This document shows positions 4,677-35,393 of a stretch of 35,393 nt of DNA, one piece after another. Each line of letters opens with the position of its first letter. Position 1 is the first letter of the stretch. The position numbers were made by a program, and so were the translations under genes. Source of the DNA: an uncultured Bacilli bacterium. Its GTDB lineage: Bacteria > Bacillota_I > Bacilli_A > RF39 > UBA660. The notes below the pieces were generated by a model, which ran no database searches, was not told the DNA's origin, and was given only the letters and a program-made list of their open reading frames with translations. The stretch covers positions 1 through 35,393 of the forward strand of contig CANPZG010000013.1 of the NCBI GenBank assembly GCA_947588765.1, read 5' to 3'.

Positions 4677-6422
4677 ATGCTAGGAAAGATATTAGAAATT
4701 AAAAATAATCATCTTACTATTGCTAAAGAAGATATTTCCAATGATATCATTAATTTGTATGTCAAAATTATTGATAAAGAAAATACTTTTATAGGTGAAA
4801 TAAGTGCTTTTAATGAAAATACAATATCTATTAATTTAGTAGGAGAACTAAATAATAATTCCTTTTATTATGGCTTAAATAAGAAACCTACCTTGGATGC
4901 TAAAGTTGAAATATTACCTCAAAATGAATTAAATATTTTATTTGGAGTTAATAATTATAGTCCTAAAACCCATTTATATTTTGGTAAAAGTGCTATTTAT
5001 GAAAATAGTTCAATTTACCTAGATATTAATAAATTATTTGCTAATCATTTTGTAGTTTTAGGCAATACTGGTTCTGGTAAATCATGTGGCATGGCCAGAA
5101 TTCTTCAAAATTTATTTTATAAAAGTGATGCTGATCCCGTTAATTCAACATTTTTTATCATTGATGCCTATGGGGAATATAAAAGTGCTTTTTCCCAAAT
5201 TGATTATGTTAATAAAGATTTAGTTTATAAAAATTATACGACGGATTTAAATAGTAGTGATGAAGTATTACAAATACCTTTATGGTTACTTAGTTTAGAT
5301 GATATCTGTTTACTTTTAGATGTTAATAATCGTAGTCAAATTCCAATTATTGAAAAAGCTTTAAAACTTGTTGGTATTTTTAAAAAAGAAGAAGAAACAG
5401 TTATTAAATATAAGAATAATGTTATAGCTAATGCATTACTTGATATTTTAATAAATGGAAATACTCCGGCTCAAATAAGAGACCAAATATTTTCGGTTTT
5501 AACAAGATACAATACCAAAGATTTAAATTTAGAAACTCCTATTTATCAACCAGGTTACACAAGACCATTAAAGCAATGCTTAATGATTGATGAAACTGGG
5601 AAGATTAGAGATATGGAATTAGTAATTAATTTTTTAAATGAATATTGTTTGGAAGAAGCAACTTTAGATTTACCAGATGGCTCATTTATGTATTCTTTAA
5701 ATGATTTATTATATGCTTTTGATTTTGCTTTAATTGATGAAGGGGTTTTAAATGATGCTCATGTATTTGAAAGAGCTCATGCTTTAAGAGTAAAATTAGC
5801 TAGTATTTGTGATAGTGAAATAAGTAAGTTTTTTCATTTTGATAACCATTTTACTAAAGAAGAATTTTATCAAAGTTTAACGCATAAGGATGGTAAAAAA
5901 GCCCAAGTTATTAATTTAAATTTACATAATATTGATGATAGATTTGCGAAAGCTGTAGCTAAAATATATGCGAAAATGTTATTTGATTATAACAAAAATG
6001 CTTTAGAAAGAGGCAAAAATCCGATTCATATTGTTTTAGAAGAAGCTCATCGTTATGTCCAAAATGATAATGATGTTAATATTTTAGGTTACAATATTTT
6101 TGAAAGAATAGCCAAAGAAGGAAGAAAATATGCTGTTTTACTTAGTTTAATTAGTCAAAGACCTAGTGAACTATCGCAAACAGTTTTATCCCAATGTCTT
6201 AATTTCATTGTCTTCAAGATTACTCATCCAGCTGATATTGATTATATTAAACCAATGATTCCTTATGTAGATGATGAAATGTTAGAAAAAATTAAAAATT
6301 TACCAACAGGTAATTGTCTAGCTTTTGGTTCAGCTTTTGTAATCCCAACAATTACTAAAATTGATATGGCTAGTCCTAGTCCTTCAAGTAATAGCTGCAA
6401 TATATCAGAAAATTGGTTCTAA
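4677..6422 (+). CDS. HerA-like ATPase (DUF87 family)
   Basis: The 581-residue protein begins with a small beta-rich HAS-barrel-like domain (about 1-110) and continues with a RecA/FtsK-type motor. Walker A is G129-NTGSGK-S136 and Walker B is IVLEEAHR, with E455 and E456. Sensor-like ISQRPSEL follows, and the C-terminal GNCLAFGSAF strand is usual for HerA/DUF87 proteins. HerA-type hexamers translocate DNA, often with the nuclease NurA, which is not present here. The gene lies directly before the T4SS cluster but has its own likely promoter, and a promoter lies between it and the next gene. It may therefore be a DNA pump serving the T4SS or an independent repair or defence ATPase. Confidence 0.8.
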   Translation: MLGKILEIKNNHLTIAKEDISNDIINLYVKIIDKENTFIGEISAFNENTISINLVGELNNNSFYYGLNKKPTLDAKVEILPQNELNILFGVNNYSPKTHLYFGKSAIYENSSIYLDINKLFANHFVVLGNTGSGKSCGMARILQNLFYKSDADPVNSTFFIIDAYGEYKSAFSQIDYVNKDLVYKNYTTDLNSSDEVLQIPLWLLSLDDICLLLDVNNRSQIPIIEKALKLVGIFKKEEETVIKYKNNVIANALLDILINGNTPAQIRDQIFSVLTRYNTKDLNLETPIYQPGYTRPLKQCLMIDETGKIRDMELVINFLNEYCLEEATLDLPDGSFMYSLNDLLYAFDFALIDEGVLNDAHVFERAHALRVKLASICDSEISKFFHFDNHFTKEEFYQSLTHKDGKKAQVINLNLHNIDDRFAKAVAKIYAKMLFDYNKNALERGKNPIHIVLEEAHRYVQNDNDVNILGYNIFERIAKEGRKYAVLLSLISQRPSELSQTVLSQCLNFIVFKITHPADIDYIKPMIPYVDDEMLEKIKNLPTGNCLAFGSAFVIPTITKIDMASPSPSSNSCNISENWF

Positions 6423-6437
6423 TAGAGCCTATTTTTT
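6421..6437 (+). terminator. Weak possible terminator after the HerA-like gene
   Basis: AATAG (6421-6425) and CTATT (6429-6433) form a 5-bp stem with a three-base loop, followed by T residues. The short AT-rich stem makes it doubtful. Confidence 0.35.
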
Positions 6438-6440
6438 AGT

Positions 6441-6477
6441 GCAATTAATTGCATAAAAGAAAATAGTATGTTATAAT
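6441..6477 (+). promoter_or_regulatory. T4SS promoter with a palindrome on the -35 box
   Basis: TTGCAT (6449-6454) and an extended -10, TGT plus TATAAT (6472-6477), are spaced by 17 bases. The perfect 12-base palindrome GCAATTAATTGC (6441-6452) overlaps the -35 hexamer and is placed as a repressor operator would be. This is the main promoter visible for the secretion cluster. Confidence 0.65.
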
Positions 6478-6516
6478 TTTTCTGAGGAAAAAATAAGAAT
6501 CGGTGGTGAAAAGATT

Positions 6517-8736
6517 ATGCTATTAATGGATATTTTTGGAATAAAATCAGGTGTAATGGCTTTATTATTAACATTAGATGGCATAGTCTATAATTTTATC
6601 TGTGGTTTTTATGATATCTTTTTAGCGTTAACCCGTTTAAATTTATTTTCCAATGAAGATTATCAAACTATTGTCCAAAGAATATATATTATTATTGGAA
6701 TTGTAATGTTATTTACTTTATCTTATTCCTTACTAAGAGCAGTAATAAATCCGGATGAATATTCTAAGGGGGATAAATCAGCTTTAAATATTGTTAAAAA
6801 TATTATTATTTCTTTAGTTATAATTGTGGTATTACCTACTGTTTTTGATGTGGTCTATAGAGTTCAAGCGGTTATTTTAAATTCTGATGTGATAGGTAAA
6901 TTAATTTTAAATCAAGATGTTGGTACAAATGCTATTCGTGATGGTGGTAATACTATTGCGGTAAATGTATTTAGAGCATTTTTTCAAGTAAATCCTGATG
7001 CTGAGACTGGCGATTATAGTGGCGACTATGCAGGAGTTCAAACCGCTGTAGCAGGAGCTTTTGATGAAGTTAGTAGAGGGGGATCCTTCTATGTATTTAA
7101 TGGTAAATATGATTTTAATGGAACCGAATATAATTTTCCAAAATTAGTTGCGGATAATGTTATTAATTATTCTTATATAATTTCTACTATTGCGGGTGGT
7201 TTTGTTTTATGGTGTATTTTATTATTCTGTTTTGATTTGGGTATTCGGGCTATAAAACTAATCTTTTATCAAATGATTGCTCCAGTGGCAGTTGTTTGTC
7301 GGGTTATACCGGGATCTAAAACTAAAGATGTCTTTAATAACTGGTTAAAATTAGTTGTAGCTACATTCTTAGAAGTGTTTATTCGCGTTTTTGTTATGTA
7401 TCTAGGAGTTTATTTAATTACACTTTTAGTTACCAAGTTCCCTGATATTGCAGCTGCCGGAAATGATATGGGTTTAAATTTTTTCCAAAGAGTATTGTTA
7501 AAAGCATTCTTAATAATGGGATTAGTAGCCTTTATCAGACAAGCACCTAAATTGATTCAAGATGTATTTGGCTTTGATACTAAGGGCATGAACTTAGGAT
7601 TAAAAGGTTTAACTGAAAGAATTGGCGCCGGTGGTGGTTATGCCGTTAAAAATTTAGTAACTAATAGTGCTAAAGGATTAGCTAGAAGAGGTAGACATGC
7701 CGTACGAAATTTTAAAGAAACAAAAGGTCAAGGAGTAGGAAAAAGAACTCTTACTGCTACTAGAGAAGTTTTTAGTACCTTCGGTGGGTTAGGGGCAGGA
7801 TTTAGTTCTTTTGCCAGTGGCTTTAATGCCAAAAATGGTAAAGAGGCAAAAGAGGCTGCAGAAAAAGCCTTAAATAAATCAATGGAAAAGCAAGTTCAAA
7901 AAGATAAATATTGGGCTAAACATGGTGGCACAGTTGGTGGCGTTATTAAAGGTAAAGCTGAGGATGCTTTCAATGCTTTTATGGGTGTTGACGTTGCGGC
8001 GTATGATAGAGTCATTAAAGCAACTGGCGATGTGTCTCAAGCAAATGATGCTTTTAGAAATGAATTAAAAAAAGTTTTTGAAAAGCATAAAACTGATGCA
8101 ACAATTTTAACAGAAATGAAAGAAGAAGATTTTAAAGGTTCTCCAATGTTATATCAATTATATCAAGAATATCAAGGCCAATCTGTTGCAACTATTGAAC
8201 AAGATATTGAACGCCAAAGAAAGGAAGTTCAATCTCGGAGTGTAGATTATTATTATGAAGATGCTAAAAGAAAAGTAATAAATGAAATGATGGCAGCTGG
8301 AGCATCAAGAGAAGATATAGAACATGGTTTATCAATTGATGATAGCGTTGTTAAGGAAGAAGCTCGAAAATTCTTATTACAAGATTCTAATAGAATTGCT
8401 ATGCTTGATAGTATGATTGCCCAAATGACCAAATTTCAAATTACCAAACTTGGTGAAGTTGCCTTTGATGGCACGAGTGGAATTGGAAGTATTAAACAAG
8501 ATGAATTATATAATGCTAAAAATTTAGGAGAAAATGCTTTAGAAACTATGAAAAATGCTGGCATGAAGTTTGTTGATCCAGACCCTACAGTTACAGATAT
8601 GTCTAAGAAAAATCCTACAAGAACTCCTGGCAATACTGCTAAATACATTGATGATGTTGCATCCGTTGCTGGTAAAATGTCAAGTGATGCCTCATTTAAA
8701 AAACAAAAAATTATACAAAAACAACAAGATAAATAA
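6517..8736 (+). CDS. VirB6/TrbL-like T4SS membrane channel protein
   Basis: This polytopic membrane protein of 739 residues has likely membrane segments at about 53-76, 93-115, 219-240, 246-262, 282-305 and 325-342. An external loop of about 100 residues (115-218) is rich in Gly, Asp and Tyr. From about 345 a long cytoplasmic tail is charged and partly coiled-coil (for example EAKEAAEKALNKSMEKQ). Size, topology and position before PrgI and VirB4 match the VirB6/TrsL/TrbL inner-channel subunit of Gram-positive T4SSs. The start is the ATG at 6517 or three codons later at 6526, both behind GGTGGTGAA. Another PrgI-type gene follows after 23 bases. The large tail could recruit cytoplasmic partners. 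Confidence 0.8.
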   Translation: MLLMDIFGIKSGVMALLLTLDGIVYNFICGFYDIFLALTRLNLFSNEDYQTIVQRIYIIIGIVMLFTLSYSLLRAVINPDEYSKGDKSALNIVKNIIISLVIIVVLPTVFDVVYRVQAVILNSDVIGKLILNQDVGTNAIRDGGNTIAVNVFRAFFQVNPDAETGDYSGDYAGVQTAVAGAFDEVSRGGSFYVFNGKYDFNGTEYNFPKLVADNVINYSYIISTIAGGFVLWCILLFCFDLGIRAIKLIFYQMIAPVAVVCRVIPGSKTKDVFNNWLKLVVATFLEVFIRVFVMYLGVYLITLLVTKFPDIAAAGNDMGLNFFQRVLLKAFLIMGLVAFIRQAPKLIQDVFGFDTKGMNLGLKGLTERIGAGGGYAVKNLVTNSAKGLARRGRHAVRNFKETKGQGVGKRTLTATREVFSTFGGLGAGFSSFASGFNAKNGKEAKEAAEKALNKSMEKQVQKDKYWAKHGGTVGGVIKGKAEDAFNAFMGVDVAAYDRVIKATGDVSQANDAFRNELKKVFEKHKTDATILTEMKEEDFKGSPMLYQLYQEYQGQSVATIEQDIERQRKEVQSRSVDYYYEDAKRKVINEMMAAGASREDIEHGLSIDDSVVKEEARKFLLQDSNRIAMLDSMIAQMTKFQITKLGEVAFDGTSGIGSIKQDELYNAKNLGENALETMKNAGMKFVDPDPTVTDMSKKNPTRTPGNTAKYIDDVASVAGKMSSDASFKKQKIIQKQQDK

Positions 8737-8759
8737 TAATATAGAAAGGATAAAAGGGT

Positions 8760-9089
8760 ATGAATAATTTTATAATTCCTGCAAATACGAAAAAATCACA
8801 ATTAATATTAGGCTTTTTTACACCAACAGATTTAATAATATTCGGTACTGGTGTAAGTTTAACAATTATTTTGTTACTATTTATGCAAAATGCTAGCTTC
8901 TTTGAATTAGTTTTAATTCTACTGCCGGCATTAGTAACAGGATTTTTAGTTATGCCTGTTCCTAATTATCATAATATTTTGCAATTGATAACAAATATTG
9001 TGAATTTTTATAACGGAAGAAGAAATTATTATTGGAGAGGATGGTGTGTAAGAGATGAGTACGAGAACGAAATTAAACGACAAAAATAG
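8760..9089 (+). CDS. PrgI-family T4SS membrane protein
   Basis: The 109-residue protein has a short cytoplasmic start with F.IPAN, two close membrane helices (about 21-42 and 46-66), and a C-terminal segment containing the aromatic YYWRGWCVRDEYE typical of PrgI-family proteins. These small proteins are always found next to VirB4 in Gram-positive T4SSs and act as its membrane partner (VirB3-like position). An AGAAAGGA site precedes the start. Its 3' end overlaps the VirB4 N-terminal gene by 35 bases, which supports coupled translation. Confidence 0.82.
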   Translation: MNNFIIPANTKKSQLILGFFTPTDLIIFGTGVSLTIILLLFMQNASFFELVLILLPALVTGFLVMPVPNYHNILQLITNIVNFYNGRRNYYWRGWCVRDEYENEIKRQK

Positions 9090-9621
9090 TTCTAAATATA
9101 CAGAAAATTGGTTACCAGTAAAACAAATTATAAATGGGATGATTTTACTTGATACGGGTGAATATGTGACAGGTGTTAAGGTTGCACCCCGGAATATATT
9201 TATCATGGAATCAGGTTTACAACAAAGTATTATAAATAATTTACAAAATTTTTATAATTCTATTGATTATGAATTTTGGTTACTTATTGCTGATCGACCA
9301 GTAGATATTGATGTTTACTTATCAAGATTACAAATACTATATAATAATGCGACAAATAGCGCTATAAAAAAACTTATTATGCAAGATATAAATAAAGCTA
9401 ATTTATTTATGAGTGCTGAATATAATGTCGTTGATACAGAATATTATATTTTATTTAAAGAAAAAAGAATGGAATTAGTGCAAAAGAAATTACATAATTT
9501 GATGAGTGGATTAGCTACAGCAGGTCTTCAATCAAGTCAAACATCTAATAATGATTTAAGAATTCTTTTAGATAATTATTTAAATGGTGGAGAACAAACT
9601 ACCTTTGGGACGGTGATGTAA
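9055..9621 (+). CDS. VirB4 N-terminal domain as a separate protein
   Basis: This 188-residue soluble protein matches the N-terminal domain of VirB4/TrsE-type conjugation ATPases: NWLPVKQIINGMILLDTGEY, then a ferredoxin-like alpha-beta region with YEFWLLIADRPVDID and EYYILFKEK. In most relatives this domain is fused to the ATPase encoded by the next gene. Here a clean TAA at 9619-9621 ends it and the ATPase gene begins one base later in another frame. The start ATG has GGAGAGGATGG upstream. The two products together (782 residues) have the normal length of a full VirB4, so they probably act as one split subunit. Confidence 0.78.
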   Translation: MSTRTKLNDKNSSKYTENWLPVKQIINGMILLDTGEYVTGVKVAPRNIFIMESGLQQSIINNLQNFYNSIDYEFWLLIADRPVDIDVYLSRLQILYNNATNSAIKKLIMQDINKANLFMSAEYNVVDTEYYILFKEKRMELVQKKLHNLMSGLATAGLQSSQTSNNDLRILLDNYLNGGEQTTFGTVM

Positions 9622-9622
9622 A

Positions 9623-11407
9623 ATGAAATTAAAAAGTGAATTAGCCCCTAAGGGAATGGAATTTAAACCAACAGAATTTATGTTAGGTGGAAAATATTCT
9701 ACTATTTTAACTATAGTTTCTTATCCTAAAAATATTATGTTAGGTCATTTAGCTAATTTAACAAGTATTCAAGGTGTTAAAATTGCCGTAAAACATATTC
9801 CAATTGAATTTGCTGTATTACAAAAAATGTTAAATAAAGAAATCGCCGATTTGAAACAAAGATATCAAAATGAAAAAGACCAAACAATGCAAGAAATGAT
9901 TCGTCAAGATTATGAATCACTAGAACAATTTATTCAAATGTTGGCCGCTACGCAAGCAAGAATTTTTGATTTTCAAATGCATTTATTAATTACGGCTGAT
10001 ACAAAAGAAGAATTGGATTTAAGAAAAATTCATGTTCGTAGTTTACTTGAAGGTTTAGGAATGAAGTCTGTAGCTTTAATGTTTGAACAAGAAAAAGCCT
10101 TAAAATCAATTATTCCAATATTCCCACCTCAAGATATTGAACAAAGAATTGGTACGCCAATACCATCTATTACTATTGCAGGAATGTATCCATTTATTTT
10201 CGATAGTATTAAAGACCCGGGAGATGCGACATTGTTAGGTGTGGATTTCTCCGGTGGGGTTATTCTATTTAATCAATTCCTATATCAAATAAAGAAAGAA
10301 AATAATCGTAATAATGCCAATATAATTATTCTTGGTACATCTGGTTCTGGTAAATCAACAGCTGCCAAATTATTACTTCGAACTCATTTAAGAAATGGTT
10401 GCAAAGTTGTTTGTGTAGACCCTGAAGGTGAACTTGAAGAAATGTGTCGTTCTATTGGTGGTGATTTTCTTGATTTAGGTAAAGGTGGCGATTTTGGTAT
10501 GGTTAACCCATTAGAAATTGTCATTGATGCTGATGAAGAAGAAATTGAACAAGGCTTAGGTTATACTGTTTTAACAAGAACTATTCAACAATTAAAAGCT
10601 TTCATGAAATACTATACTCCTAGTATTGAAGAAGATGTTTTAAATATGTTTAGTGAAGTAGTTCAAGATACATATAAAAGATTTAAAATAGATTTTGATA
10701 CCGATTATACAACTTTGACAAGTAATGATTTTCCAACCTTTGATGATGTTTATGCTACTATTAAAGGACGTTTACTTTCTATGACTGATGCTACTCATGA
10801 AAGAGATATAATGGAAAGATTAGAATTAAAGATTAGACCTTTAGTAAAAGAATTAAGATATTATTTTACAGGTCATACAACCTTAAGTATTCAAAGTGAT
10901 TTTATTGTCTTTAATATCAAAGAATTAATGAATAGTGATGAAAATATTAAGAATGCTTTATTCTTTAATATCTTAAAATATGCTTGGGGCTTATGCTTAG
11001 ATAAAGATGTTAATACGGCCATGTATGTTGATGAAGCCCATGTATTGTTATCAAGCCATAACGAATTAGGTGCAGAATTCTTAGCTCAAATTCAAAGAAG
11101 AAGTCGAAAATATAATACGGGAACAATTATTGTTACCCAACAACCTACCGACTTTGCAGCTCCTAACTTAATAATGCATGGTAAAGCCATATTTGATAAT
11201 GCAGCATATTACTTAGTTATGAACTTAAGAAAACAAGCAGTAGAAGATTTGAGTAAATTAATTGACTTAAATGAAAGCGAAAAAGAATCTATTAAATATT
11301 ATAATCAAGGGGATGCGTTATTTATCTGTGGTAACAGAAGAATGAGAATTCAAGTTGTTGTTTCCCAAGAAGAATTAGATTCCTTTGGTGCTGGGGGAGG
11401 ATTATAA
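9623..11407 (+). CDS. VirB4-like T4SS ATPase
   Basis: The 594-residue ATPase has an accessory N-terminal region (1-190) and a RecA-type motor. Walker A is G238-TSGSGK-S245 and Walker B is AMYVDEAH, with D470 and E471, followed by RRSRKYNTGTIIVTQQP. VirB4 hexamers dock at the inner-membrane channel and energise assembly and transport. The FEFKPTEF-like start region continues directly from where the preceding gene stops in fused homologues. GGTGATG, partly inside the upstream gene, can act as ribosome-binding site, so translation is likely coupled. It is followed by the wall hydrolase after 32 bases, a common order in Gram-positive T4SSs. Confidence 0.9.
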   Translation: MKLKSELAPKGMEFKPTEFMLGGKYSTILTIVSYPKNIMLGHLANLTSIQGVKIAVKHIPIEFAVLQKMLNKEIADLKQRYQNEKDQTMQEMIRQDYESLEQFIQMLAATQARIFDFQMHLLITADTKEELDLRKIHVRSLLEGLGMKSVALMFEQEKALKSIIPIFPPQDIEQRIGTPIPSITIAGMYPFIFDSIKDPGDATLLGVDFSGGVILFNQFLYQIKKENNRNNANIIILGTSGSGKSTAAKLLLRTHLRNGCKVVCVDPEGELEEMCRSIGGDFLDLGKGGDFGMVNPLEIVIDADEEEIEQGLGYTVLTRTIQQLKAFMKYYTPSIEEDVLNMFSEVVQDTYKRFKIDFDTDYTTLTSNDFPTFDDVYATIKGRLLSMTDATHERDIMERLELKIRPLVKELRYYFTGHTTLSIQSDFIVFNIKELMNSDENIKNALFFNILKYAWGLCLDKDVNTAMYVDEAHVLLSSHNELGAEFLAQIQRRSRKYNTGTIIVTQQPTDFAAPNLIMHGKAIFDNAAYYLVMNLRKQAVEDLSKLIDLNESEKESIKYYNQGDALFICGNRRMRIQVVVSQEELDSFGAGGGL

Positions 11408-11439
11408 AATAATTCTTTAAAGTTTGGTGGTGAATTTTA

Positions 11440-13002
11440 ATGGCTGAAGAAAAGAAAGATAGTAAAAATAATGTAGCAAATAACCAAAATGCTACTTCTT
11501 TTCGTGGTAAAAAAAATTCAGCAAATCAAACTGAAGACAATAGATTATTATATGATCCTGAATATCGGCAACATAATTTTTTAAATAGCAATATTACTAG
11601 AGAAGATGATGAAGAACAAGAAGAATCTAGTGAAGAAGAGGAAAAAGAAACAGAAGAAAAACAAGATGAGCAACAAGCCACAAATTCTGAAGAACAAAAA
11701 CCTCAAGAAAATGTAAGTAATGCCAGACCAAAAGTTAATAATCGTGAAAAATTAAGAGTAAAAGGCAATTCTAAAATGAATAAAGCTGATTTTATTTTAA
11801 AATTTCATAAATATAAGATTATCATTATTATTGCTTCAATAATATTAGTATTGTTTATGATACTTATTCTTTTTGGGGCTATAGGTGATGCTGAAGAAAG
11901 TGACAACTCAAATTCTTTTTGTTCTTCAGGTACTGGAGGTAATTTATTATCTTTCCTTGAAGCATGGGAAGGTAATGAAGGCTATTGTGAAGTGAATGGA
12001 GAAAAAGGATATACAGCTAAAAATTTAGGCGATGGGGCGATAACTCTTGGTTCTGGTTTTACTAACTTAGCAATGGATGCAGATGTGATATCTTATATTC
12101 ATAGTAATGGTTGGGCTGCATATTTTCTTGGAAATACAGTTACAGTTGGAATGTGTGTGCCAATTTCAGTTTTTGAAAGAGTGCAATTATTTGCTATTGA
12201 AAGAACTTATGCTAAAGCAATAGATGATGCTGCTAATAAATATAATGTGGTTTTAACTCAATATCAAAAAGATGCTTTAACCGATTTTAATTATAATCAA
12301 GGAACAGCTTATAGCGATAGACTTTTATCGGCTTATGCTTCCGGGGGTTATTCCGGCTTATGGAATGAAATGAAAATTCATACTAAAGGTGGCATGGCAG
12401 GAATTATGAAACGACTTAAAGCAGAATTTGCTTTATTTGTTACTGGGGATTATTCAGATCAAAATTTATTTTATAGTCGTAGTATTGGTAATTTTGATGA
12501 CTATAATTCTGAAAAAGTTATGTCAAGAATGTTAAATTGTCGAACTTCATCTAATGGATTTATAATGCCATTAGAGGATAATACTTATCGTTGTTCATCA
12601 TCTTTTGGTCCAAGAAAACCGCCAACTCAAGGTGCAAGTTCAAATCATGGTGGTATTGATTTAGGGGCAAGTTGTGGTATACCAGTTCATGCTGCTCAAG
12701 ATGGTACTATTTCTATTAGAAGATCTGACAGTACCGGTGGTGGTAATTGGATTCAAATTGAACATGGAAATGGTATGGCTACCCGATATTTACATATGTC
12801 AAGATTTGCTAGTTATGGTGAAGGAAGTAAAGTACGACAAGGCGATGTAATAGGATATGTTGGAACAACAGGAACTTCTACTGGTTGCCACTTAGATTTT
12901 AGAATTTTAGTTAATGGCACAGCAGTAAATCCTATGGATTATATTAAAGATATAATTAAACCATTTGATAATAATTTTTATAAGTGTAATCATAATTATT
13001 AA
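11440..13002 (+). CDS. T4SS cell-wall hydrolase: GH24-type lysozyme plus M23 peptidase
   Basis: The 520-residue bitopic protein has a cytoplasmic acidic Glu/Gln-rich tail (1-125), one membrane helix (about 126-148), a T4-lysozyme-like GH24 domain (about 165-350: FLEAWEG with the probable catalytic E177, DGAITLGSGFT, and YQKDALTDFNYNQG) and a C-terminal M23 LytM-like domain (about 380-510: HGGID with H403 and D407, YLHM, GCHLDF). It would locally open peptidoglycan for the secretion channel (VirB1/TrsG role). The usual M23 H-x-H is H484-L-D486 here, so one zinc ligand is changed. The exported part holds eight cysteines, an unusual number for a Gram-positive protein, suggesting disulfides. The start follows GGTGGTGAA. 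Confidence 0.88.
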   Translation: MAEEKKDSKNNVANNQNATSFRGKKNSANQTEDNRLLYDPEYRQHNFLNSNITREDDEEQEESSEEEEKETEEKQDEQQATNSEEQKPQENVSNARPKVNNREKLRVKGNSKMNKADFILKFHKYKIIIIIASIILVLFMILILFGAIGDAEESDNSNSFCSSGTGGNLLSFLEAWEGNEGYCEVNGEKGYTAKNLGDGAITLGSGFTNLAMDADVISYIHSNGWAAYFLGNTVTVGMCVPISVFERVQLFAIERTYAKAIDDAANKYNVVLTQYQKDALTDFNYNQGTAYSDRLLSAYASGGYSGLWNEMKIHTKGGMAGIMKRLKAEFALFVTGDYSDQNLFYSRSIGNFDDYNSEKVMSRMLNCRTSSNGFIMPLEDNTYRCSSSFGPRKPPTQGASSNHGGIDLGASCGIPVHAAQDGTISIRRSDSTGGGNWIQIEHGNGMATRYLHMSRFASYGEGSKVRQGDVIGYVGTTGTSTGCHLDFRILVNGTAVNPMDYIKDIIKPFDNNFYKCNHNY

Positions 13003-13016
13003 AATAAGGAGCCAAA

Positions 13017-13784
13017 ATGAAAAAAATAATTATTTGTATATTTTTAGTATTTCTTTGTTCTGGATGTAGTGTAACATATAATTTAGAAATTAATGAAAAT
13101 GATTTTCAAGAAAATATAAGTATTTATAGTCAAGAAGACTCTACTGAAACATATGATGGAACTAATATTTTTGATTTTTATAATTTACAAAAAAATGAAA
13201 GAATTCCTAAATATTTTGATCATGGATATGATTTAGAATATTATACGGGAACTATTAGTGAAGATTTATTGTATAAAGTAGAAGATTACAGTAATGAAGA
13301 AAACAGAGGTATTCAATTAAGTGCTAATTTTGATGATACAGATTTCTATCGTTCCGCTGCAATTAAGCAATGTTTTGAAGAATTAGATAGGCAAAAAGAA
13401 AATGGATATGTTTTATTACGGACTAATAATAAATGTAATTTATTCGAAACTTATCCTATACTTGAAAATATTACTATTAGAATTAAAACAGATTTAGAAG
13501 TAATAGCTTCTAATGCCGATAATGTAGATGATAATGTATATATATGGGATATAAATAGAAATAATTATAATAATAAATCTATTCATTTAACATATGTTTT
13601 ACCAGGTAGTATAAAAAAACCAGAAGAACAACAACCAATAACCCCTGAAGAAAATGTTGAAGAAAATAAAGAAGAAGTTGTTGAAAATACAGAAGAAGGT
13701 AATTATAATATATTTCTAATTTTAGGAAGTTTTGTTGTTTTAGCTTTAGTTATTTACTTTGTTTTAAAATATAAAAATAAATAA
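13017..13784 (+). CDS. Membrane-anchored lipoprotein of the T4SS cluster
   Basis: This 255-residue protein has a signal peptide with a lipobox-like LCSGC (lipidated Cys probably C17). An extracytoplasmic beta-rich domain follows, with a CSVTYNLEI opening and IRIKTDLEVIASNAD then VYIWDINR, reminiscent of LppM/DUF3153-type lipoproteins. A Glu/Pro linker and a second membrane helix (about 229-250) complete it. Two cysteines in the middle of the domain (KQCF, NKCN) may pair. It begins 14 bases after the wall hydrolase with AAGGAG before the ATG. A structural role in the wall-spanning part of the T4SS is inferred from position only. Confidence 0.6.
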   Translation: MKKIIICIFLVFLCSGCSVTYNLEINENDFQENISIYSQEDSTETYDGTNIFDFYNLQKNERIPKYFDHGYDLEYYTGTISEDLLYKVEDYSNEENRGIQLSANFDDTDFYRSAAIKQCFEELDRQKENGYVLLRTNNKCNLFETYPILENITIRIKTDLEVIASNADNVDDNVYIWDINRNNYNNKSIHLTYVLPGSIKKPEEQQPITPEENVEENKEEVVENTEEGNYNIFLILGSFVVLALVIYFVLKYKNK

Positions 13785-13791
13785 TATTTAG

Positions 13792-13820
13792 TTGTGAAAT
13801 AAATAAATATTTTGTATAAT
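13792..13820 (+). promoter_or_regulatory. Internal promoter before the VirD4 gene
   Basis: TTGTGA (13792-13797) and TATAAT (13815-13820) are spaced by 17 bases, with the ATG 24 bases further on behind AAGGAAGG. It would allow the coupling protein to be expressed apart from the rest. Confidence 0.55.
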
Positions 13821-13843
13821 ATTGAAGGAAGGAAAGAATATTA

Positions 13844-16102
13844 ATGAAGTTCAAAATAGATAAAAAAGATTTATTAATGTTTGTAATTTATTGTATTTTA
13901 CTATTGTATTTATGTGCAATAGCTGTTTTGAATTTCACTTCATTAATTAATGAAGGTGTTTTTTATGGTTTAATGCCATTTAAAGCTTTTACAATGCCTT
14001 ATTTGCCTGTAACTATTTTATTATTTGTGGGCTCTTTAATTGCCATATTTTCAAGTGTGTCATCTTATATTTTTAAAAAAGATAAAAGTGGTGGCATAGG
14101 TATTAAGATAAAGAAAAAAGAAAGTGATGGCTATGCCAAATGGGCTGAAGCTAAAGAAATAAAAAAAGGTGAAGATGTTGTTAAAATTAATAGATTAGCG
14201 GATACTTTAGATGCTGCAGGTGTACCTTTAATAAATAATGAAAAGGAAACTTATGTTGATAATGGGGAATATCATAACTTAGTTATTGGATCTACTGGTT
14301 CTGGTAAAACTCAAACTATTGTTAAACCAATGGTTAATTTCTTAGCTAAAAAAGGCGAAAGTATGATAATTACTGACCCTAAAGGAGAAATTTATAAATA
14401 TTCAGCTAATTATTTAAAATCTTTAGGTTATAAAATTATTCTTTTAAACTTTCGGGAACCCCAAAATGGTAATGCGTGGAATCCTTTAACTTTACCATAT
14501 CAATACTATAAGAGTGGTAATATTGATAAAGCTACGGAATTACTAGATGATATTGCTTTAAATATTTTGTATGACCCTAGTAATAAAAATGATTCTGATT
14601 TCTGGGAAAAAAGTGCGGCCGATTATTTCTCTGGTTTAGCTCTTGGTTTATTCATGGACGCTCAAGAAAAAGAAATTAACTTAAATAGTATTAACTTAAT
14701 GAGTACCGTGGGAGAAGAAAGATGTGGAACTAGTCACTATATTAATGAATATTTCCGTTTTAAAGGGGAAAGTTCCAGTGCTTATATATTTGCATCAAAT
14801 ACTATAAATGCGCCAAGTGATACTAAAGGTGGTATTCTTTCAACTTTTAGACAAAAGATTAGAAAATTCTCAACCCAAGAAAACTTAAGTGAAATGTTAT
14901 CATATAGTGATTTTGATTTAAGAAGTATTGGTAATGGTAAGACCGCAATATTTATGATTATTCATGATGAAAAGAAAACTTACCATAGTTTAATGACTAT
15001 TTTTATCAAACAATGTTATGAAACATTAATTGATGTAGCTCAAGAAAATGGTGGTAAACTTCCTATTAGAACTAATTTTATTCTTGATGAGTTTGCCAAC
15101 ATGCCTCCATTAAAAGATGTTGATGCGATGATTTCGGCGGCTCGGAGTAGATTAATTCGTTTTACTTTTATCATTCAAAACTTTGCACAATTAAATCAAG
15201 TTTATGGTGAAGAAGTCGCCCAAGTTATTCGCGGTAACTGTGGTAATTTAATTTATTTAATTAGTACCGAACTTAAAGCTCTAGAAGAAATTAGTAAAAT
15301 GTGTGGGGAAGTAAAAGTTACTGATGATAAAGATAAGAATGCGACAAGACCATTAATATCAATAACTGATTTACAAAAAATGAAATTATTTGAGGGTATT
15401 ATTATTCGACTACGGACTAATCCTTATAGAGTAAAATTACAACCCGATTTTAAAATAGATTGGGGAATCAAGAGAATTGAAGAACCGTATCCGCAAAGAA
15501 TGAAACAACCGGTAGAATTATTTGATTTGAAAAAATTTGTTATGGAAGAACGTAACAAATTAATGGCCGAACAAAGTAATAATATGGGTGGAGGAATGGA
15601 TAACCCATTTGCCAATCCATTCAGTAATCCAATGGGTAGTCCATTTGGTATGGGCGGTATGGGACCTTCTTCGATGAGTTCTTTAGGTGGCTTAGATTCA
15701 CCATTTGCATCTCCAGCCAAAGAAACAAAAAAACCTCCGATGGGAAATTTAGATTTAGATGCGATGCTTAAAGATATAGATGAAAAATTAAAAGCCTTTG
15801 AATTAGAAGAGGAAGAAGCTAAGCGAGCTGAAAAAGCTAAATTAGAAGAAGAAGATGTCGTTCTTGATGCTGAAACTAAAGAAAAGGATGAAGAACCTAA
15901 AACTGAATCAACAAAAGAACCTGATACCGAAGAACTAGAAGAAGTACCAGTAGAAAAAACTGTTAGTACACCTATTGAAGAATCCACACCGACTGAAAAT
16001 GGCGAAAAACCAAAAATTAATGTTGATGCGGATAGTATCATAGTTAATGAAAATGTTATTACCGATGATGAATTCTTTGATGATTTCTTTGGTGATGAAT
16101 AG
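13844..16102 (+). CDS. VirD4/TraG-type T4SS coupling protein
   Basis: The 752-residue ATPase has two N-terminal membrane helices (about 10-33 and 53-76) and a cytoplasmic motor. Walker A is G149-STGSGK-T156 and Walker B is FILDEFANM with D415 and E416, followed by SAARSRLIRFTFIIQNFAQL. VirD4 proteins bring DNA or protein substrates to the T4SS. From about residue 570 the sequence becomes an unusual tail: a Gly/Met/Pro/Phe-rich stretch with repeated (N/S)PF units, then about 130 residues very rich in Glu and Lys, ending DDEFFDDFFGDE. Such tails can bind substrates or adaptors. No relaxase accompanies it in the window. Confidence 0.9.
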   Translation: MKFKIDKKDLLMFVIYCILLLYLCAIAVLNFTSLINEGVFYGLMPFKAFTMPYLPVTILLFVGSLIAIFSSVSSYIFKKDKSGGIGIKIKKKESDGYAKWAEAKEIKKGEDVVKINRLADTLDAAGVPLINNEKETYVDNGEYHNLVIGSTGSGKTQTIVKPMVNFLAKKGESMIITDPKGEIYKYSANYLKSLGYKIILLNFREPQNGNAWNPLTLPYQYYKSGNIDKATELLDDIALNILYDPSNKNDSDFWEKSAADYFSGLALGLFMDAQEKEINLNSINLMSTVGEERCGTSHYINEYFRFKGESSSAYIFASNTINAPSDTKGGILSTFRQKIRKFSTQENLSEMLSYSDFDLRSIGNGKTAIFMIIHDEKKTYHSLMTIFIKQCYETLIDVAQENGGKLPIRTNFILDEFANMPPLKDVDAMISAARSRLIRFTFIIQNFAQLNQVYGEEVAQVIRGNCGNLIYLISTELKALEEISKMCGEVKVTDDKDKNATRPLISITDLQKMKLFEGIIIRLRTNPYRVKLQPDFKIDWGIKRIEEPYPQRMKQPVELFDLKKFVMEERNKLMAEQSNNMGGGMDNPFANPFSNPMGSPFGMGGMGPSSMSSLGGLDSPFASPAKETKKPPMGNLDLDAMLKDIDEKLKAFELEEEEAKRAEKAKLEEEDVVLDAETKEKDEEPKTESTKEPDTEELEEVPVEKTVSTPIEESTPTENGEKPKINVDADSIIVNENVITDDEFFDDFFGDE

Positions 16103-32501: not shown

Positions 32502-32534
32502 AAAAAGAACATCAACCAGTTGGTTGGTGTTCTT
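32499..32534 (-). terminator. Hairpin terminator of the XRE gene, shared with lgt
   Basis: 32505-32518 and 32521-32534 form a 14-bp stem with one G-U pair. On the minus strand it is followed by a U-run (A residues at 32500-32506), so it mainly stops the XRE transcript. It overlaps the end of that coding region and follows the lgt stop directly. Confidence 0.8.
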
Positions 32535-32754
32535 CCATTATAGACTTAGCTAAAGGTTTCTTTATATCAGTTCGATATAGTATATAATCAATATTAGTTT
32601 TATAGTAATTTGCTAATTTTATTAAGATATCTTCGGTTAACATAGTTTGTCCTGTTTCAAGATAACTATAGTTTCTTTGTGTTATTCCTAATTTTTTCGC
32701 AATATCCTTTTGTAATAAATCATTATCTTCCCTTAATTCTTTTAATCTATTCAT
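32512..32754 (-). CDS. XRE-family (Cro/C1-type) DNA-binding protein
   Basis: The start is the ATG at 32754 (minus strand), behind GGGTGA; a GTG at 32763 overlaps that site. The 80-residue protein is a single lambda-repressor-like helix-turn-helix: LKELREDNDLLQKDIAKKLG, then ITQRNYSYLETGQ as recognition region, and KLANYYKTNIDYIL as the closing helices. It is transcribed away from the large surface-protein gene. The space between them holds two repeated operator-like sites over the surface-gene promoter. It therefore probably represses or switches that gene, and maybe itself. Confidence 0.88.
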   Translation of the reverse strand: MNRLKELREDNDLLQKDIAKKLGITQRNYSYLETGQTMLTEDILIKLANYYKTNIDYILYRTDIKKPLAKSIMEEHQPTG

Positions 32755-32772
32755 ATTATTCACCCAAGATTA

Positions 32773-32844: not shown

Positions 32845-32988
32845 CATAATAGTAGAAGGAGTGTAGTACTATGGAAGAAAAAAATAAAAGAAAAGGAATA
32901 ATATATCTAGTAATAGCTATAGTAACATTACTAGTTTTAATTGCTGGAGCAACATATGCCTACTTTCAAGCAGTAACTGGAAATAGTG
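32845..32988 (+). repeat. Paralogous repeat, copy 1 (leader of surface protein 1)
   Basis: These 144 bases cover the ribosome-binding site, start and signal segment. They align without gaps to 35062-35205 with few differences, mostly at third codon positions. The regulatory DNA just upstream is not shared. Confidence 0.85.
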
Positions 32989-34697
32989 CGATAGCTAATT
33001 TAAATACGACAAGTGGTACAACAGATAGTTTAACATTTTCTACAACTGGAGATATATCTTTAAGTGCTGATGCAACAAATTTTGGCGAAGGTGCTAAAAA
33101 TATTGAAGGAAGTTCTATAGCAAAAGCAACATTAATTCCAAATAATACAGATAATTATGCTAAAGGAACATATAATGTATATTTGGTAATAGAAGAAAAT
33201 CCGTTTGAATATACATTATATAAAAATGGAAATGAAAATACAAAATCATATACAAATAAAGAAGAAAAAGAAAAAGCAATTAGTTTAGGAGAATTAGATG
33301 AATATACTCCTGAGCCAGAATTATTATTAACCATAACAAGAGATAAAGATAGTTATATGCAAGTAGTAACAGAATTAACACAATATAGTTTAAAAGCAGA
33401 AGATGGAACATTAGATAGTTATGATATAACCGAAGCAAAAGGATTAATAACAATAGCCGAAGATGTACCAATAGAAGCAAATGAAAAAGAAAAAATCGAT
33501 GAATGGGGAATAACCATAACCTTAAATAATTTAGATAGTGATCAAAATTTAAATACAGGAAAGTCAGTAATAGGAAAAATAATAATCCAAAAAGAAGATA
33601 TAGCAACAGAAGTATTAGATGTATGTAAAACAAATGATAATTTAGCTAATTGTTTAATCAAATTACATGATGAAAGTGAATATGGAATAACAAAGATAGT
33701 ATATCATGATGAAAAAGAAGATTATAAAGGAGAAACAAACTACGAATTAGAAGCCGGAGACTATTCATATCGATACAGTGGTTCGTATGAAGAAGTAAAT
33801 AATTATATCTGTTTTGGAGGAGAATGTTCTAATGATCCAGCAGATGAAGAAAAATATTCCAATTTATACAGAATAATAGGGGTATTTCCAACAGAAGAAA
33901 CAAAGAATTTAGATGAAAAAACATACCAACTAAAAATAATTAAAGCAGACTATGCAACTTCGAAAGAAACAGGAGGTTCAGGAATAGGTGCATATAATGG
34001 AACATATGGTTCTGTATCAACAAACTATAAAGGAGACAAAGAAAATTATTTACCAAAAATAGGAGCATATTATTGGAACAAAAATCAAAATGAGTCAGGA
34101 GATGACACAAATAACTGGGGAACAAGTAATTTACAAGAAAAAAATTTAAATGGATACTATTTAAGTGAATATCTAGGTAAAAAAACCGAAAGTGATAAAT
34201 GGCTAGGTATGATAGAAGAAGACCACAACTGGATAACAGAAGGAAATATATGGAACAAAATAGTACCTCAAAATGCCAAAATAGCATATACAAATGAAAT
34301 ATTACATTCTAATGCGGGAAAAGACTTAGAATATGGATTATCAGATGTGGCACCAACAGTTCAAGCCAACTTAGGTTTAATATATGTAAGTGATTATAAA
34401 TATGGAGCAAGTAAAGAATACTGGACAAAAGTAGGATATGATAGTAGTAGTGCAACAAACGATTATAGGGTAGCAATAAATGCTAATTGGTTATATATGG
34501 GCTTAACCGAATGGACAATAACTCGTCGAGCCGACGTTTCCAACAGTGCGTTCTATGTGCATAACAGCGGGACTGTGGGCCACGATAACGTCAACGACGT
34601 CAGCATTGCAATCCGGCCTTGTCTTTATTTAAATTCAAACGTAAAAATAACATTAGGATCTGGGAAAGCAACTGATCCTTATATACTTTCTATGTAG
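32871..34697 (+). CDS. Exported surface protein with SipW/TasA-like leader and C-type-lectin-like variable domain
   Basis: The 608-residue protein starts with a Lys/Arg-rich end, a hydrophobic helix (about 10-28) and GATYAYFQA, close to SipW-dependent leaders of TasA/camelysin proteins. The N-terminal half is Thr/Asn/Glu-rich beta structure. Cysteines occur at VCKTNDNLANC and ICFGGEC. The C-terminal ~250 residues look like a C-type-lectin/formylglycine-enzyme-like fold (YRIIGVF, LKIIKADYAT, GAYYWNK, WLGMIEEDHNW, AINANWLYMGLTEW). They end with RRADVSNSAFYVHNSG (552-567) and AIRPCLYLNSNVKI, the layout of variable regions in diversity-generating-retroelement targets. The coding DNA turns GC-rich just there (34531-34620). 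It would be a ligand-binding surface protein under XRE control. Confidence 0.75.
   Translation: MEEKNKRKGIIYLVIAIVTLLVLIAGATYAYFQAVTGNSAIANLNTTSGTTDSLTFSTTGDISLSADATNFGEGAKNIEGSSIAKATLIPNNTDNYAKGTYNVYLVIEENPFEYTLYKNGNENTKSYTNKEEKEKAISLGELDEYTPEPELLLTITRDKDSYMQVVTELTQYSLKAEDGTLDSYDITEAKGLITIAEDVPIEANEKEKIDEWGITITLNNLDSDQNLNTGKSVIGKIIIQKEDIATEVLDVCKTNDNLANCLIKLHDESEYGITKIVYHDEKEDYKGETNYELEAGDYSYRYSGSYEEVNNYICFGGECSNDPADEEKYSNLYRIIGVFPTEETKNLDEKTYQLKIIKADYATSKETGGSGIGAYNGTYGSVSTNYKGDKENYLPKIGAYYWNKNQNESGDDTNNWGTSNLQEKNLNGYYLSEYLGKKTESDKWLGMIEEDHNWITEGNIWNKIVPQNAKIAYTNEILHSNAGKDLEYGLSDVAPTVQANLGLIYVSDYKYGASKEYWTKVGYDSSSATNDYRVAINANWLYMGLTEWTITRRADVSNSAFYVHNSGTVGHDNVNDVSIAIRPCLYLNSNVKITLGSGKATDPYILSM
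34521..34620 (+). other. Putative DGR variable region
   Basis: Codons 551-583 are GC-rich (49 of 90 bases at 34531-34620) within an AT-rich gene. They are dominated by codons ending in C or T, such as GAC, AAC, CAC, GGC, AGC and GTC, interleaved with apparently fixed GCG-TTC, GTG, GGG and CGG-CCT. This is what A-to-N mutagenesis of AAC/AAT codons copied from a template repeat would give. No template repeat or reverse transcriptase is in the window. Confidence 0.6.
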
Positions 34698-35061: not shown

Positions 35062-35205
35062 CATAATAATAGAAGGAGAGTAGTACTATGGAAGATAAAA
35101 ATAAAAGAAAAGGAATAATATATTTAGTAATAGCAGTAGTAACATTATTAGTTTTAGTTGCTGGAGCAACATATGCTTATTTTCAAGCACAAATAGGAAA
35201 TAGTG
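35062..35205 (+). repeat. Paralogous repeat, copy 2 (leader of surface protein 2)
   Basis: The second copy of the 144-base leader repeat at 32845-32988. Similarity ends soon after the signal segment. Confidence 0.85.
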
Positions 35206-35393
35206 AAAGTTTTAATATAGATGCAACTGCGGGTACTACTGATTTATTAACTTTTACTATGGCTGATATCAATACAAGTACTTCCAATCCTAATGTAACT
35301 GATAGTCATAATAAAGTAGGTGATACTGAAAATACAGAAATAGTAATAAATGCAACTCAACAAAACTTTGGTGAAGATGATACAAGCTTAGGT
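35088..35393 (+). CDS. Second exported surface protein, N-terminal part
   Basis: The frame stays open to the window end, giving 102 residues of an incomplete gene. The first 34 residues are almost identical to surface protein 1: a basic start, a hydrophobic helix and GATYAYFQA, the SipW/TasA-like leader. After GNS the sequence diverges but keeps the same style (ATAGTTDLLTFTMAD, then Thr/Asn/Asp-rich beta segments). GAAGGAG precedes the ATG. The regulator next to it is an RHH protein rather than XRE, and the upstream control DNA is unrelated. Whether it also ends in a lectin-like variable domain cannot be seen here. Confidence 0.82.
   Translation, partial: MEDKNKRKGIIYLVIAVVTLLVLVAGATYAYFQAQIGNSESFNIDATAGTTDLLTFTMADINTSTSNPNVTDSHNKVGDTENTEIVINATQQNFGEDDTSLG

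Follow-up and report, generated by a model that had tools for sequence, protein, structure and literature searches.

In BPP-1 and other DGRs, a reverse transcriptase (RT) acting together with Avd copies a template RNA, making errors opposite adenines, and the resulting cDNA replaces a variable region (VR). Remote or trans targets are already known from Treponema, cyanobacteria and Thiohalocapsa, one such target being matched to the template of a different strain (PMC4891356, PMC7517822, PMC10907252). In the TvpA-type DGR of T. denticola, one RT and one template repeat (TR) are accompanied by two to seven lectin/FGE-fold targets genome-wide, and in strain SP32 a remote target fits the template of another strain, which has been interpreted as a leftover (PMC4891356). 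The MSL accessory (PF01624, MutS domain I) is also already known from DGRs (PMC10053308). The largest DGR survey was, by its own statement, unable to detect remote targets (PMC8144416), and networks of such targets are therefore probably under-counted.

The locus described here belongs to a 1.27 Mb genome of Bacilli type (58 contigs; completeness 92.45%, contamination 0.41%), and the window – the whole stretch of DNA analysed – is its entire contig C13, 35,393 bp long. Sequence comparisons make it highly likely that positions 34524-34619, approximately, are a DGR-written VR in the gene for a probable surface protein of C-type-lectin fold, corresponding to a template type (type B) carried by the cassettes of sister species. 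The features of the window concerned are the following:

32871..34697, + strand: DGR-type target gene, an intact ORF of 608 aa, with an N-terminal hydrophobic segment, a long middle part and a C-terminal lectin-fold domain
33699..34694, + strand: predicted C-type-lectin/FGE-fold domain (residues 277-608), common to about 32 paralogs of the genome
34524..34619, + strand: putative VR, the GC-rich block, codons 552-583, apparently of type-B template origin (about CGTCAAGCCGACAATTCCAACAATGCGTTCAATGTGAATAACAACGGGAATGTGAACAACAATAACGTC...)
35088..35393, + strand: second target-family gene, 5' part only, broken off by the contig end

The original prediction had described a GC-rich block set in an AT-rich gene, and base composition bears this out: GC is 0.544 at 34531-34620, compared with 0.291 elsewhere in the gene and 0.275 over the window as a whole, the peak (0.556) falls in the 90-nt window starting at 34527, and across the whole contig 12 of 35,304 such 90-nt windows are as GC-rich as the block. 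The block had also been placed just before an R-P-x-L-Y-L end, and it is indeed closed by I-R-P-C-L-Y-L near the C-terminus, and the VR lies near the 3' end of the gene for the lectin-fold protein. Read codon by codon, the VR agrees with the AAC/AAT derivation that had been proposed, showing changes from AAC/AAT to NNY with fixed codons in between; the inferred variable codons – GTT, AGT, TAT, CAT, AGC, ACT, GGC, CAC, GAT, GAC, GTC and AGC – all end in C or T.

The placement of the block in a C-type-lectin fold, likewise part of that prediction, is supported by the predicted structure; in an alignment of the family, the window VR falls in the same region as the proven VRs of its own genome. 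The C-terminal 332 residues are predicted with a pLDDT of 92.9 to adopt a C-type-lectin/FGE-like fold, with structural matches at Z 4-6 to PvdO, animal C-type lectins, the C-terminal domain of Legionella Lcl and FGE; such values would be weak taken singly, but nearly all of the matched chains have a lectin or FGE fold. A further structural match, at Z 15.5, is to a protein of Thomasclavelia ramosa (9qa6), in its N-terminal part. Searching Pfam and PDB by sequence returned no family for the target protein, and no ortholog of the gene occurs among 30 genomes of the genus. Since a hydrophobic segment at residues about 8-32 gives a weak match to a SipW-dependent-type signal (TIGR04088, E 0.046, under the profile's own cut-off), the protein is probably exposed on the cell surface.

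Upstream of the target gene and divergent from it lies a small ORF resembling a helix-turn-helix regulator (32512-32763, - strand), which may bear on the regulation of the target. Further away, positions 4677-16102 carry conjugation-type genes (HerA/FtsK-like, TrbL-like, TraG/VirB4-like, an M23 peptidase with lysozyme and a VirD4-type coupling protein) that probably belong to an integrated conjugative element.

The lectin-fold domain is matched 32 times in the genome, the last one or two matches being weak, and a VR region could be extracted from 27 of these paralogs. Their GC content is bimodal: 11 of the 27, the window VR included, lie at 0.45-0.53 and the other 16 at 0.27-0.39, so that targets with the GC block form a class of their own. 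The 11 GC-rich VRs (GC of at least 0.45) comprise nine that correspond to the template on contig C26, that of the window and one at C4:16079, while a paralog on C15 resembles the window VR but has drifted towards AT there. At locus L022 (C4:14579-17836) the VR is GC-rich too but belongs to a further template type (SAWVVTRAG...); its gene is broken near locus position 1050, inside a GA-rich stretch, by a frameshift that may reflect a pseudogene, an assembly error or phase variation.

Three RTs are encoded in the genome, on C2, C22 and C26. The first is of group II intron type and the second a retron RT (PADLOC Ec107-like, 6e-124), and both were set aside; the retron RT (C22:6417-6983, L004) represents a separate retroelement of the same genome. 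The third is a DGR RT:

C26:12396-13466: DGR RT, in a cassette with an Avd-like ORF and a MutS_I-like ORF

The C26 cassette reads, in order, target with VR, GC-rich hairpin, TR, ORF124, Avd-like ORF and RT, the 5' end of the core target being lost at the contig end. It is a DGR by its TR–VR pair, which differs almost only at TR adenines, and by its accessory genes. The Avd-like ORF matches the NCBIfam Avd profile at 1.3e-6 and the phrog Avd profile at 8e-10, under the curated cut-offs. ORF124 is MutS-domain-I-like (PF01624 is matched by 30 of 37 homologs, and the predicted fold agrees). Among 80 related RT loci, which come from 'uncultured Bacilli' and Tenericutes MAGs, ORF124 accompanies 73 and Avd 78, and 16 have a local TR–VR pair with at most one non-A mismatch. 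An 85-aa ORF at the end of the RT gene (L005 1035-1292, C26) has homologs in 36 of the 80. The own assembly contains no second DGR cassette, second Avd or second MutS-I-like ORF.

C13 breaks off in the 5' part of a target gene and C26 (L008, C26:4000-15556) in the 3' part of the core target. They may be adjacent contigs, in which case the window gene would directly precede the cassette on its upstream side. Contig ends near target genes are seen on other contigs, too.

The GC-rich hairpin of the cassette (GGCTTGTCTTCGTGCC...GGTACGAGGCAAGCC) lies between VR and TR, 3' of the C26 core target (L008). Similar hairpins are found at the core targets of several relatives and after none of the remote targets, those with A-only VRs included; none is present 3' of the window gene. 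As a marker of active targets a downstream hairpin is thus uninformative, being missing from every remote target.

The C26 TR, compared with the VRs of its own genome over an 84-nt core, explains one local and eight dispersed VRs, the latter on six other contigs. Mismatches to it are distributed as follows:

C26 local VR: 13/23 A, 0/61 non-A
C55 VR: 13/23 A, 0/61 non-A
C7 VR: 14/23 A, 0/61 non-A
C6 VR: 16/23 A, 0/60 non-A
C1 VR: 12/23 A, 1/60 non-A
C10 (three VRs) and C2 VR: weaker A-bias

Four of the nine VRs, three of them remote, differ from the TR at adenines only. Mis-binning of the remote targets is unlikely, because some of the assembly's longest contigs are among those that carry them and contamination amounts to 0.41%. 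Given nine VRs explained by one template, four of them through A-only differences, it is very probable on this sequence evidence that the bacterium hypermutates surface lectins in trans.

The window block has a different relation to this template. As its source the C26 TR was rejected (49 nt matched, with 9 A and 7 non-A mismatches), so that the original idea of a template and RT encoded elsewhere holds for the DGR RT on C26, with its dispersed sister targets, and fails for the C26 template as the writer of this block. A predicted template, obtained by setting the variable codons of the window VR to AAC/AAT, was searched for in 30 genomes of the genus. Its best match (95% over 56 nt) is G020:C37, a TR that precedes the RT of its DGR cassette by about 0.9 kb. 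The window VR itself matches two templates of sister species:

34531..34600, + strand: match to the G020 cassette TR, differing at 15/31 A and 4/39 non-A (p=4e-4, somewhat optimistic since best hits were picked among several templates)
34518..34602, + strand: match to the orphan TR of G022:C10, 85 nt, differing at 16/37 A and 8/48 non-A

The G022:C10 match is the longer, also taking in CGTC[A]AGCCGAC at the 5' end; near the 3' end this template is shorter than the window VR by about one codon. Against a 75% consensus of 16 sister-species TRs, the window VR differs in 12/29 A columns and 1/24 non-A columns (p=0.0016, again somewhat optimistic for the same reason). The closest templates all point to an A-bias, more distant ones giving no significant bias, and at least four non-A differences separate the window VR from every template found. 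The G022:C10 locus (L076, about 1460-1585) is a TR that adjoins a recently written VR but has neither an RT nor an Avd or MutS-I-like ORF next to it.

The block fits a second template type, type B, found beside RTs in sister species. That it was not made by a DGR at all – being instead GC-rich sequence introduced through recombination among paralogs or through horizontal transfer, or a conserved lectin loop with odd codons – is very unlikely: paralogs are many and recombination could shuttle GC-rich VRs among them, but the mismatches are A-specific when compared with templates that adjoin RTs, the codons follow the AAC/AAT to NNY pattern, and a recombined segment would itself be DGR-made. A phage origin was also rejected: viral RTs reach no more than 39% identity, the target has no viral homologs and the flanks gave no matches. 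The central claim of the original prediction, that the block is a DGR variable region, is supported by its A-specific relation to sister-species templates beside RTs, its AAY-derived codons, its lectin fold and its alignment with proven VRs of the genome.

The genome search that had been proposed, for a template of about 100 bases next to an RT, succeeded in part: it led to the RT and TR on C26, while the block's cognate template was not found in the 92%-complete assembly. Searches of that assembly with a template pattern and with the predicted template gave no type-B template; apart from the block, they returned only the C26 TR and a match of 14 nt put down to chance. In the RT tree, the own C26 RT, G025 and L131 (all type A) form a supported clade. 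The templates closest to the window VR are those of L150, L155 and L166, and their RTs sit elsewhere in the tree, in a group of four rows joined by a weakly supported fork. Template type follows RT clade. The window VR would have its cassette outside the assembled sequence, or be left from a lost one. In either case a type-B template would be, or have been, present in the lineage, whether in its unassembled part or since lost or replaced.

That the target is active, with a type-B cassette or orphan template left unassembled and possibly the C26 RT acting in trans, comes only just short of an even chance in our estimate. An assembly that is 92.45% complete and in 58 contigs leaves room for it, several genomes of the genus have at least two DGR-type RTs, and G022 pairs a type-A cassette (C71) with a type-B TR that has no adjacent RT and adjoins a VR differing from it at 13/30 A and 1/42 non-A positions. 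The window VR has moreover kept its GC-rich codons where its C15 relative is AT-rich. Against this stands the own assembly, without a type-B TR, a second Avd or a second MutS-I-like ORF.

Alternatively, the block may be a frozen relic, left when the type-B cassette was lost or when a type-A template took the place of its own, or else acquired with the gene alone; we regard this as plausible, if somewhat below an even chance. It would accord with the type-A cassette being the only one in the assembly, with the parallel in Treponema denticola SP32 (PMC4891356) and with the C15 paralog as an AT-drifted likeness of the window VR. It accords less well with the block itself, in which no AT drift is visible and conserved non-A template columns differ in 1/24 only. 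The preserved GC codons slightly favour recent activity.

On the reading of the block as DGR-written, a template RNA rich in GC and in AAC/AAT would be copied by an error-prone RT, assisted by Avd and a MutS-I-like protein; misincorporation would occur at template adenines during cDNA synthesis, and in homologous target genes the cDNA would then take the place of the 3' part. The C26 template would in this way rewrite at least eight dispersed paralogs, while the window target, a member of the same protein family, goes with the other template type. Mutagenic retrohoming, surface display, ligand binding and action in trans would all form part of this scheme, in which the MutS-I-like protein perhaps binds mismatched duplexes of cDNA and target. 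A broader version, in which one RT serves at least two template types, some of them orphan and distant from any RT, within a network rewriting about 30 surface lectins and with the window gene as a target of its second channel, strikes us as unlikely.

A gut-type bacterium with a genome of 1.27 Mb thus has about 32 genes for one lectin-fold family, at least nine of which, spread over the genome, match a single retroelement template. As the window gene illustrates, base composition together with codon pattern can reveal a lone VR; the gene also raises the question of whether several templates are used in trans by one RT.

Compared with known systems, the genome shares with T. denticola its dispersed lectin/FGE-fold targets and a target that fits a different template type; it differs in having Avd and a MutS-I-like ORF, a gut Bacilli-type host, nine targets per TR and another N-terminal part (PMC4891356). 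As in cyanobacterial DGRs, dispersed variable proteins with C-terminal C-type-lectin domains occur beside VR-less paralogs, although the cyanobacterial targets are mostly predicted to be cytosolic, some of them fused to kinases, whereas the protein described here has a hydrophobic N-terminus and is probably exported (PMC7517822). With Thiohalocapsa PB-PSB1 it has in common several template classes per genome, incomplete loci and candidate remote targets in trans; that organism, however, has nine loci, 15 targets, ties to conflict systems and diversification seen in population data, compared with one cassette here (PMC10907252). MSL DGRs have a similarly small MutS-domain-I-like ORF within the cassette, but here Avd is present as well, the two accompanying 73/80 (MutS-I-like ORF) and 78/80 (Avd) related loci (PMC10053308). 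This genome is notable for how many targets one template has and for its mix of template types.
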